Made by a program: the position numbers and the translations under genes
Part shown: positions 31,501-40,500 of the stretch, in pieces
Layout of the letters: each line of letters begins with the position of its first letter
How positions within the stretch are numbered: position 1 is the first letter of the stretch
Notes under the pieces: model-generated
The model's input: the letters and a program-made list of their open reading frames with translations, nothing else
Told to the model about the DNA's origin: nothing
Database searches by the model: none
NCBI RefSeq assembly: GCF_027579695.1
Contig: NC_083574.1
Location: 60,736,559 to 60,800,558, forward strand
Reading direction: 5' to 3'
DNA: 64,000 bases
Origin: Neoarius graeffei
Taxonomy: Eukaryota > Chordata > Actinopteri > Siluriformes > Ariidae

Positions 31501-34500
31501 TGCCATAGTGTAGGTGGTGATTTGGCCAGTGAGCACCATTTAAAAGACACTAGTATGGTCAAAAGTATGTGGACACCTGACTAAGGTGACCAGATTTCTC
31601 GAGTCTAAAACCGGGACACTTTGCGCGTGACCGTGATACTCGTGCACGCACACGCGTTTTGATGTAAACATGTGCCGGCTCAAACCATGGCTCAGACAGG
31701 TACTTTTTATAGAAGCTCACTTTTATCAACATTTCAGAGAATAATCAAGTTTTTTCTTGTTATCTACATGCACTTCTATCACAATTCAGTTAAAGTAAGA
31801 AAATCAGACAACAGATGTGATGGTAGGGAATAGGCCAATAGCCTAAATTTCAACCGATTTATTTCACCTTTGTGAAAACGCCAAGAAAATGCATTGCTTG
31901 CATATTAACGTCAACATTTTATGCGATTAACTTTTTTTTTTAACAATAGGCTATGTATTGTAACAGCAACGAGCGCATGAGCCTAATCGTTGTCACCTCT
32001 GAACCTTTACCCCAAATGCCTCTGTTTAATCTTAACCAGTGTCGGGTATTAACTATTTTGACAACGTGAACCCTGAGTTGACAACAGCATCAAACAAGTC
32101 AAGACGATCTGTGATACAGATGAAAGACAACAAAAAATGTTTCAGAAACGCAGCCACCCAACCCACCCACCCTAAAGAAGATGCCATTTTATTGCATATA
32201 TTTACATGATGAGTGAATTTGCTCCAGTAGCGCTTTATTGCCCGAGAGCCTGCTGGGAAACTGCGAGCAAGTATCGTTGAAATTGGCCCGGGTAATGAGC
32301 AAGGCTTCGAGAGTAGGCACGGTCATGCGATTCCTCTCGTCAGTCAGGTGTTACTCATGAGTGAAAAATATTCGCTCAACTGGAGCATTGGTGCGAGGTA
32401 GGCACATGGCAAACTGGCAAAGCTGGCTGACATTGCTGTAAGAAATCTCCCTACTCTTGAAGTGCGTGAACATCTCCGCCCAGCGCTCATCCGTGCGGCA
32501 TTGTCGCGTAGTAGTTGACAGCCGCTAGCGCAAAAAAACGTTATAATGCGGCCTCTATATTGCAACATTGTACAAATAGATGCATTGTTAGGTTGACTGC
32601 GCACACACGCTCATTGATGCTGAATTGCTAGAAGCTTTATTGACATCTCGTTGGCTATATATGATCGCTGTAACCGGGATAGTTTGTTAGCGTTTGGTGT
32701 AAACCGGGACATTTCAGCGTCCCGACGGACCTTTGTCGGGACTGGGGACACATGACTCAAAATCGGGACTGTCCCAGTCAAACCGGGATGTCTGGTCACA
32801 TTACACCTGACCAACTTTCCTAAACTGTTTCTATACAGTTTGAAAGAAAGCACAACTTAATTCATCACACACTTGTGAAATTTCCTCTCTGCATTTAACC
32901 CATCTGAAGCAGTGAACACACACGCACATACATACCCAGAGCAGTGGGCAGCCATGCTAACAGCGCCCGGGGAGCAGTTGGGAGTTAAGTGCCTCGCTCA
33001 AGGGCACCTCAGCCCATATTAACCTAACCGCATGTCTTTAGACTGTGGAGGAAACCCATGCAGACACGGGGAGAACATGCAAACTCCACACAGAAAGGCC
33101 CTCGCTGGCCGCTGGGTTCGAACCCAGAACCTTCTTGCTGTGAGGCGACCGTGCCGCCACATACTTGTAGCATTTACAACTTCCATTCGCTGGAACTAAG
33201 GGGTCCGAACATCTTCAAGCATGACAGTGCGCCTGTTACAGGTTTATCAGTAAAACTCCTCCTTCAGTCTTCACCTACACGGACAGAACTGGGCAAATCT
33301 GCCTTTGGTTCATATGCAGCACATGAGTGGAATACATTACAAAATACTTTAAATTTGGACTAGCTACCCTCCCTAAATGTCTTTAAAAATCTTTTAAACT
33401 CAGTTCTCACACAACAGTGCCATTGTTTTTCATAATTTTTAACCCTTATATCTTTAATTCATTTTTTTATTTTTTCTTGTCCATACCATCTGGAATGTCT
33501 ATGTGCTCAGTCTGTGTTTATTTTATTTTCATTTTTTGGAATGTCTGTGCGCTTATATGTGTTAATATTGCATGTTCTATGTGTATGTTGTCTATGTATC
33601 ATCTTTTGGCTGCTCCCGATTAGGGGTCGCCACAGCGGATCTTTCGTCTCCATTGCTCCCTGTCTTCAGCATCCTTCTCTACCACACCTGCCACTTTTAT
33701 GTCCTCTCTCACCACATCCATGTATCTCCTCTTTGGCCTTCCTCGTTTTCGTTTGCCTGGCAGCTCCATCCTCAACATTCTCCTTCCCACATGCTCTGCA
33801 TCTCTTCTCAGGATGTGCCCATACCATCTCAGTCTCATCTCTCTTAGCTTAATTCCCAAGCTCTCAACATGTGCTGTCCCTCTGATGTGCTCGTTCCTTA
33901 TCCTGTCCAACCTCCCGTCGCAAACCTTAACATCCTCGACTCCGCCACCTCCAACTTTGCCTCCTGTCTCTTCATTAAGGGTACGGTCTCCAATCCATAC
34001 ATCATAGCTGGTCTCACTACTGTCTTATACATCTTACCTTTCACTTTTGCTGGGACTTTCCTATCACAAATGACTCCCGAAATCCTTCTCCAACTGCTCC
34101 ACCCTGCCTGCACTCTCTTTCTCACCTCACTATCGCAGCCCCCATTTTCCTGCACAGTTGACCCCAGGTATGTTGTCTATGTATATTGAAACTTTTTATT
34201 TGCTGCCACCTTGGCCAGGACTTCCTGGAAGAAGAGATAATGTATCTCAATTCCTGGTAATAGAAAGGATAAATAAATAAATAAAAATAAACAAAGCGAG
34301 CTCCATGAAGACATAGTTTGCCAAGGTTGGTGTAGAACAACACCCTGTGACCTCAACCCCACTGAACACTGTGAGGTTGAACTGGAATGCCTTCCCAGAA
34401 GACTGGAGGTTATTGTAACAGCACAGGGGAACAAAATCTGGAATCGGATGTATAGCAAGCACAAATGGGTACGGTGGTGTAGTGGTTAGCACTGTCGCCT

Positions 34501-37500: not shown

Positions 37501-40500
37501 CCAAACGAACTAAATTCAACATGGCTACAAACCGAATAGGCTGATAAGTATAATGTTTAATTGCCATTAGTTGCCAATACGAGTCACGATATAAGGTTAC
37601 TAAAACCGAAAATGTAATTGAATAACACGTTAATTAAGAAATAAAGCAAGTTTAAAAATGACTTCAGTGCCCCTTTAATTGGTGGCTCTAAATTGACCGT
37701 AAGTGTGAAATGTGAGTGTGAATGGTTTTGTCTGTATGTATCAGCCCTGTGATGATCTGGCAACTTGTCCAGGGTGTACCCCACCTCTCACTCATAGCCA
37801 GCTGGGATAGGCTCCAGCTTGCCCGCAACCTAGCACACGGTTATGGATAATGAATGAATGGATGGTCTGGTGTCCACATATTTTTGGTCATATATGAACT
37901 TATGGGATATTTATGTTTCTAAAAGTGCAAGATTGCATTCTTAGTATTATGTACTACGTTGATAGCGTATATGTTTTCTGGCAGCAAATATCAAACATTA
38001 CCTGTGGACGTCTGCTATAATCATGGTGAGCTTGCATGGAATATTATTAATTCATACACGAATCTTTGGTAATCTCTTAATCATGCTAAGGGTCATGATA
38101 GGAAAAGAAAAAGAGATATCTGTACAAATGATAAAGTGGAGTGTTTACACAATGTGTACCCTGAGAAAGTGACTTGAATTTCTGCCTAAATATCACTGAA
38201 TATCTGTGAAAACTTTTCAGATGGTCATATTTTGACATCTACTTTATATAGTTCTGAAAACTACAAGTTTCTCTGACCTGAAATATGTTTCTCTTTTCCT
38301 TGTCTCTCAATCATAAGTTTTAGCATTGCATTTAAACATTTTAATTCTAATTACACTGAAAAAAAAAAAAAAAACATGTACCTCTACATACCGAATATAT
38401 TTTTATGAAAATGACCTGTGCTTTCAGCCCTGGTGGAGAATTAAACCCAGGAGAGGACGAAGTAGAGGGCTTAAAGCGGCTGATGACAGAGGTATTGTTT
38501 TTGTTTTCTCTTCATTTCAAACTTATCTCTGAATGGGCTCTGTCCATTTGATCCTTTGATGTAAAGAAACGGTAGTGTAATTTTCTTTTTCTGGATTTTT
38601 TGTTTTCGTTAAATTGGATATGATAAATTATGCTACATCACTGGGGTCAAGCTTGATAATCAGTCTTTTTGTTTTGCATTTAGGGAGTGAAATGCTTTAT
38701 TGTCCAGGCAGAATCCTTGTTTACATTATCTACTTTGTTGAAACACTGGATGCAAGCAGTATAGTTTGGTTCAGCTCTGACAAGTGTAGATGGAGAGGTT
38801 CAAATATAGATGTCGAGCTTCAAAAATGTAAAACATTATATCGATAAACATTTTTAAGGAAGACAATCACTACAAACTTCTAAATAATAAGTTTGAATGG
38901 CACAGAAGCACTATCGCCTCTTAACTTATTTTTTCTAATTTTCTATCGTTCATGTTGAATGAGTATTCATTTAATGCATTTTTTTTTAATTGCATATCAC
39001 TGGAAAGTCACAAGTAATCAGCGCAGCGTGACGTCACGTTCTTAAGTTGTATAAAAGGAATGTGGTATTTTCCTGTATTAATCCCAGCATAGCAAAACAA
39101 GGTGCAATCTAATAACAATTGATGCAACAACAACAATGGATAGGAAATGTTCCGTTTAGCTTTGCAGCTTCATTGATGAAGACTTGTGCTTTGGCTAGAT
39201 CTTGGGGCGTCAGGATGGCGTGAAGCAGGACTGGGTGATTGATGACTGCATTGGAAACTGGTGGAGGCCCAATTTTGAACCACCACAGGTTAGTGATCTG
39301 TTCCCCATGTTCTCTGTATGTACCACACTGGAATACATAGAAATTGAATGTAGTTCATTTAATGAACATAAGCACTCATGAATTAAGACTATGCTTTATC
39401 GTTAATTTAACTTAACGTCTATGCTGGATGTCTTCAGTACCCCTACATTCCAGCACACATCACAAAGCCCAAGGAACATAAGAAGCTTTTCTTGGTCCAG
39501 TTACAAGAGAAAGGTAAGGCCTCACAAGGATATACAGTGCTCTCTGCAATTATAGGTACTCCTGGTAAAGATTAGTTTTTTTAAAAAGGGGGGCATTAGA
39601 GGGGAAAAAAAATCCACTTTTTAGTGGCTTCGTTTCACACGGGTTCGAGGCCCTCTCGTGCACTTTCCTCTCCAGCTCACCCCACAGGTTTTCAGTGGGG
39701 TTCAGGTCAGGGGACTGAGATGGCCATAGCAGAAGCTTGATTCTGTAGTCAGTGAACCATTTTTGTGTTGATTTGGACATGTGCTTCAGATCATTGTCCT
39801 GCTGGAAGATCCAATGATGACCCGGTTATAGTTTCCTGGCAGAGGCAGCCAGATGTTGGTTTAAAACGTCCTGGTATTTCATGGAGTCCATGATGCCATG
39901 TACTCTAACAAGGTTTCCAGAGTATTTGGAGGAATAACGGCCCCAAGACATCAAAGAACTTCCACCATGTTTTACAGTTGGGATCGGGTTCTTTTCATGA
40001 TGGCCATCTTTTTTTTTTTTTACACCAAACCCACCTTGAGTGTTTTATTGTCAGAAAGCTCCATTTTTGTTGCATCAGACCATAGAACGTGGTTCCAGTC
40101 AAAGTTGTAGTAGCGTTTCACAAACTTCGGGTGCTTACGTTTGTGGTTAACTGACAGAAAAGGCTTTTCTCTGACAGACCTTCCAAATAATCCATTGGCA
40201 TGGAGGTGGAATCTGATTGTGGTTTTGGAGACTCGGAAACCCCAAGATTTTACTTTTATATGTTTGTTTGTAATTCACCAACAGCGATCCTTGGGGATTT
40301 TTTTTCCTTCTCTTACCATCCTCCTCACTGTACGTGGAGGCAAAATACACTTGGGTTCTCTTCCAAGCAAATTTATAACAGTTACAGTTGGTGTCCATTT
40401 TTTTTTATTATTGCCCTAACAGTAGAAATGGACATTTTCATCCAACTAGCTATTTTTTTTTTCCATAACCATTCCCTGACTTTATGAAGGTCAACACACT

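Follow-up and report, generated by a model that had tools for sequence, protein, structure and literature searches.

A stepwise transposon nest in intron 2 of nudt21 in Neoarius graeffei, with a Kolobok/T2-like element that probably carried its MITE along

That relative age can be read from nests of transposable elements, and that DNA transposons can spread elements foreign to them, is already established in the sources cited here, as far as their passages on these points go. Insertions of one element into another are read in this way by TinT, by interruption analysis and by REANNOTATE (PMC3014933, PMC2672092), and the passage on REANNOTATE names as a problem that a mobilised element may carry a nested one with it. 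The same problem is met in the 6.3-kb transposon nest that we describe here, which lies in intron 2 of nudt21 of Neoarius graeffei, within a stretch of 64,000 nucleotides (contig NC_083574.1, positions 60,736,559 to 60,800,558 of the forward strand; hereafter the window, to which all positions given without a contig refer).

Two described systems come closest to the central element of this nest. The Kolobok superfamily, with the T2-MITE (miniature inverted-repeat transposable element) of Xenopus, has a TTAA target and a terminal AGGRR motif according to the cited passage (PMC6004289); the TTAA element of the nest likewise has TTAA-AGGGG at both ends, and it differs from T2-MITE, as far as that is described there, in that it belongs to another genome and carries a foreign MITE; no transposase was seen for it, with no search aimed at one. 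For fish, it is reported that MER6, a MITE of the Tc1/mariner type, spread the domain of V-SINE, a short interspersed element (SINE) (PMC6887750, in the passage cited). As there, a DNA transposon has multiplied together with an element foreign to it, the difference being that MER6 represents a SINE domain in a Tc1/mariner element and the present case a MITE in a Kolobok-like one. In the open-licence literature, as far as it was covered, we found no description of a Kolobok element with a MITE as its cargo, which is not proof of absence.

The nest is real, in that its host elements, once the inserts are removed, match uninterrupted copies in the same genome (2.34 Gb, 38 contigs). Such host continuity is present at the sites of both hAT elements, of the L2-like long interspersed element (LINE), of the SINE, of the TTAA element and of the fold-back element. 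From the nesting it follows that the Tc1 element preceded the first hAT element (hAT-1), a composite SINE, the L2-like LINE and the tRNA-type SINE, that the LINE preceded the RTE element inside it, that the SINE preceded the composite of TTAA element and MITE, and that this composite preceded the second hAT element (hAT-2) and the fold-back. The divergence from the respective consensus is in step with the nesting, with 15.9% for the Tc1 element, 8.5% for the SINE and 4.6% for the TTAA element. The anatomy and coordinates given by the original prediction, which had been made from the letters of the window, were borne out, and its order of Tc1, SINE, TTAA element and hAT-2 agrees with the empty-site alignments and with the divergences. 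The target duplications that it had named (CACCTGAC, the 17-bp RTE repeat, TTAA and TATCAGTC) were likewise found, and the healing that it had proposed as a check, namely to remove the inserts and align the hosts, gave a collinear Tc1 element and continuity for the SINE, for the TTAA element (40 of 40 places) and for the MITE (37 of 39 copies). By far the most probable reading is that transposons accumulated here step by step, as they ordinarily do in a long intron, and that the TTAA element arrived with the MITE already aboard.

The TTAA element occupies 34632 to 37678 (34636 to 37674 between the TTAA copies at 34632 and 37675), and the MITE with its CCCTGTGTCCGAAATC ends lies within it at 36414 to 37242, in this copy without a target duplication. 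With the fold-back removed, the MITE has 39 other scored copies in the genome. Flanks were taken for 30 of these, whereas nine were left out, most of them partial or split; two near-full-length copies (C26:36912179 and C24:5964985) thus stayed outside the flank sample. The TTAA element was present on both flanks in 29 of the 30 copies examined, the exception (L123) lying elsewhere, and in 26 copies both junctions fall at one position: the left flanks end at positions 247-258 of the TTAA consensus in all 29 copies, and 26 have a right flank that begins at 255-257. A flank score of 30, which both flanks attain in 29/30 MITE copies, was reached by 1 of 2000 random 40-mers from outside the nest. 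Twelve composites could be read, four of them (L129, L130, L132 and L138) over their full length and bordered by TTAA at each end, the rest partially in the fetched stretch, and across these the divergence of the MITE part rises together with that of the TTAA part (rho 0.82, p 0.001, n=12). Measured on one common alignment, the MITE part shows 5.8% divergence against 4.1% for its carrier and is hence no younger than the carrier, as co-mobilisation would predict. At its right junction, GGG-TTGTCAAAAG, the copy in the nest agrees with the others; at its left junction 14 bp are deleted, and it is this deletion that accounts for the missing visible duplication of the MITE. A doubled TT was found in 11/11 filled and 0/30 empty copies of the TTAA element, which is what an insertion would leave. 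It appears from these alignments that a composite of TTAA element and MITE, about 1.1 kb in length, moves as a unit, and the MITE in the nest was probably inherited inside the TTAA element, with no separate local insertion. As such, the five-deep stack of the original prediction stands as physical nesting, whereas its fourth layer, the MITE, probably did not insert independently, given that 29/30 of the copies examined lie inside the TTAA element, and the column of five layers would correspond to about four local events.

Several points weigh against a MITE that was captured once and has travelled with the TTAA element since then. The right flanks of three copies (L077, L111 and L121) lie at other positions of the TTAA element. 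A tree of the TTAA parts of 12 filled and 30 empty copies, which is unrooted and star-like and from which one of the 12 composites (L133) was kept out as too short, mixes filled and empty copies; it needs 8 changes compared to 10.5 after shuffling, a value reached by 17-20 of 500 shuffles, and since the clustering is this weak, the tree does not establish a single capture. One base separates filled from empty copies at p 0.0006, which fails correction for 691 tests. The sampling also has to be considered, as the flanks come from the MITE copies closest to that of the nest, itself inside the element, so that composites are favoured, and the consensuses were also built from the copies most like the nest's own, by which the divergences are understated.

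Among the alternatives, one could imagine that the MITE is site-specific and has inserted repeatedly at an AACGTT-GTC site of the TTAA element, each filled copy then representing its own event. The single position found in most of the 30 copies examined and the mixture of filled and empty copies on the tree would agree with this; the correlated divergence of the MITE and TTAA parts speaks against it, as do four members outside the element (at 15223 and 6106 of the window, L017 and L123), which are not at AACGTT, and we regard it as improbable. The related idea, that the MITE may be a hyperparasite which uses one site of a Kolobok-like element as its preferred landing target and spreads with the element, seems to us improbable to the same degree. 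Somewhat less probable still, and in our view very unlikely, is that every layer, the MITE included, inserted separately at the nudt21 locus. This would fit the anatomy taken alone, and MITEs of the same family do occur outside the TTAA element (the same four places), but 29 of the 30 copies examined lie within it, the copy in the nest has the shared right junction, and MITE and TTAA parts diverge together. That the filled form is ancestral and a precise loss of the MITE gave rise to the empty elements is the least probable of these readings, as the doubled TT in all 11 filled and in none of the 30 empty copies is what an insertion would give, even if an unrooted and star-like tree would permit it.

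The reading of a TTAA element that arrived with its MITE would imply one founding capture of the MITE and a subsequent mobilisation of the composite by a Kolobok transposase that recognises the outer ends only. At the nudt21 locus, an old Tc1 fragment would have landed at a TA, after which a hAT element, a composite SINE, an L2-like LINE and a tRNA-type SINE entered it and an RTE element landed in the LINE; the Kolobok/T2-like element, with the MITE inside it and about 1.1 kb long, would then have moved into the SINE by TTAA targeting, and a second hAT element together with the 408-bp fold-back, whose arrival may have been local, would have entered the composite last. The nest would presumably be without effect on nudt21.

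Members of the MITE family were also seen in other arrangements. At 15223-15945 of the window, a left end of the MITE is followed by 3.4 tandem copies of a 151-bp unit, and at positions 62-709 of L002 two copies stand head to tail with their ends directly abutting.

With hAT-2 and the MITE removed, the healed TTAA element (682 bp) aligns across both sites at 40/40 scored places with 90-92% identity. Of 30 fetched copies, 25 have TTAA at each end, and AGGGG stands at both ends of the element, so that it fits Kolobok/T2 by its ends; piggyBac was set aside on the end motif alone. hAT-2 (34778 to 36307) has terminal repeats matching at 20/21 positions and is flanked by the duplication TATCAGTC at 34770-34777 and 36308-36315. 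Its site is empty in all 30 fetched TTAA copies, which carry a single TATCAGTC or a near form there. There are 39 other scored copies of hAT-2 in the genome, the best at 97% identity, and of 10 that were inspected, 8 are flanked by their own exact 8-bp duplications and the other 2 by duplications with one mismatch, for which reason hAT-2 most likely arrived locally. The fold-back element (36458 to 36865) is a palindrome of 408 bp between copies of ATATAA at 36452-36457 and 36866-36871, and its site is read through in 37 of the 39 other scored MITE copies and in two copies in the window.

The tRNA-type SINE (34471 to 37860, plus strand) is split at the TTAA and, once healed, is continuous with other copies, spanning the TTAA site unbroken in 5 copies in the window; of 53 matches in the fetched loci, 36 also span it. 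Its own host, the Tc1 element (31556 to 37890, plus strand), has about 350 bp of its own sequence left, in five pieces, between TA copies at 31554-31555 and 37891-37892. This TA duplication and the inverted ends, with terminal repeats of 28 nt that are 86% complementary, place it in the Tc1 group, and a weak remnant of a transposase points the same way: joined across the L2 site and scored against a profile of the other Tc1 frames in the window, it gave 10.8 bits, a value reached by none of 2000 random joins (best 8.9), although Pfam matched 0 families. A first look gave 2484 Tc1 candidates in the genome. With the healed 351-bp element as query, no close full-length copy was found; the 45 rows outside the nest are partial, with 71-89% identity. 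On a Tc1 consensus of 501 bp, derived from 13 fetched genomic copies, from which other Tc1 copies differ by 9-16%, the five pieces are collinear (1-34, 27-36 plus 55-84, 116-185, 188-295 plus 376-463, and 466-499), the second of them (10 bp followed by 30 bp at E 3e-4) being weak if taken by itself. Bases were lost beside hAT-1 (18), at the composite SINE (31) and internally (about 80). The L2 site is read through by 37 of the 45 other Tc1 rows and the SINE site by 5, whereas none of the 45 reads through the sites of hAT-1 or the composite SINE. These two sites consequently rest on the mapping to the consensus, to which the pieces add for hAT-1 an overlap at 27-34 that equals its duplication in exactly 8 bp.

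Of the remaining inserts in the Tc1 element, the nonautonomous hAT-1 (31582 to 32803) lies between the copies of CACCTGAC at 31574-31581 and 32804-32811 and diverges by 3.6% from its consensus. In 25 of its 39 other scored places, the match begins at query base 26 or 27, corresponding to 31581-31582 and hence to the predicted end. Exact 8-bp duplications can be read in the printed sequence of four out of seven other copies (L003, L004, L006 and L008), whereas in L002 the duplication stands four bases beyond, in L007 it contains a mismatch, and L005 is truncated. With target duplications of 8 bp and terminal repeats that are short, hAT-1 and hAT-2 belong to the hAT group. Their peptides, which matched 0 Pfam families, may resemble hAT or ZBED proteins.

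The 5'-truncated composite SINE (32842 to 33156, minus strand), a tRNA-SINE head with another tail, sits in the gap 84-116 of the Tc1 consensus and is 82% identical to window positions 25598-25957; a fuller copy is seen at 25598-25978, between or within minus-strand LINE-like open frames. After the 3' end of the RTE-interrupted L2-like LINE (33237 to 34290, plus strand), the Tc1 consensus resumes (185/188). No clear target duplication was seen for the composite SINE, the tRNA-type SINE or the L2-like LINE, so that their junctions rest on host continuity. The RTE-like LINE (33600 to 34167, presumably on the minus strand) is 5'-truncated and flanked by an exact 17-bp duplication at 33583-33599 and 34168-34184, and its 39 other scored copies show 97-98% identity (best 98%). 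The names L2 and RTE are what we take these two LINEs to be, Pfam having given no match for either; with the 3' ends alone present in the nest, a search for reverse transcriptase in Pfam matched 0 families. In total, seven peptides were compared with Pfam; none of the five nest peptides matched a family, and the other two, from a nudt21 exon and from a LINE-like frame elsewhere in the window, gave one match each below the curated cut-off. Rfam returned nothing at gathering scores, a 24-aa exon translation, in the wrong frame, gave 0 matches in the PDB, the SINE and Tc1 patterns gave nothing in contig scans of viral and prokaryote genomes, and phage records yielded 11 matches only, all with E 3 or worse.

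The intron itself (28987 to 38427, plus strand) was delimited by the exon motifs of nudt21, its left bound being approximate and the splice bases predicted. Peptide motifs of the gene are found at 28507, 28784-28940, 38429, 39202, 39438, 41020 and 47312, intron 2 being bounded by the exon peptide at 28868-28969 and by PGGELNPG at 38429. Since exon motifs flank it at 28784-28969 and 38429, the nest from 31556 to 37890 lies within this intron, about two thirds of which it fills. A second nest seems to be present in the same window, as a SINE (18988-19315) and Tc1-type open frames (20122-22297) break up the LINE-like open frames at 16138-24660. On the minus strand, an open frame of 190 amino acids with a hydrophobic stretch was noted at 22581-23153.

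The original prediction had also expected a readable order of activity for about ten families, and this part is not supported as stated: the nest puts its copies in order, and these only in part, but does not tell when ten families were active relative to one another. hAT-1, the composite SINE, the L2-like LINE and the tRNA-type SINE are siblings in the same Tc1 element, and nesting gives them no order relative to one another. At L017 (C24:4926526-4927209), a TTAA element lies inside a MITE of the same family, off the usual composite site, and since this reverses the nesting of the two, no family order is given by the nest. At L129 (C3:97192091-97193257), the composite occupies the corresponding TTAA in a different SINE copy and has unrelated flanks. 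The arrangements at L017 and L129 indicate that the families overlapped in time and that some pairings recur. A segmental duplication joining L129 and the nest was considered and rejected, as the flanks of L129 have no significant match to Tc1 and the two halves of its SINE resemble those of the nest no more than they resemble other SINEs in the window. TinT, as described in the cited passage, draws on genome-wide frequencies of nested insertions (PMC3014933, PMC2672092), and a single nest such as the present one cannot give the activity periods of families.

Overall, the nest in nudt21 holds a warning for transposon stratigraphy, as a layer that looks like a textbook case was probably inherited and did not arise locally. 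Before layers are counted as events, other copies of the elements should hence be compared for shared internal junctions. With the composite of TTAA element and MITE, there appears to be a countable case in which one nonautonomous element bears another.

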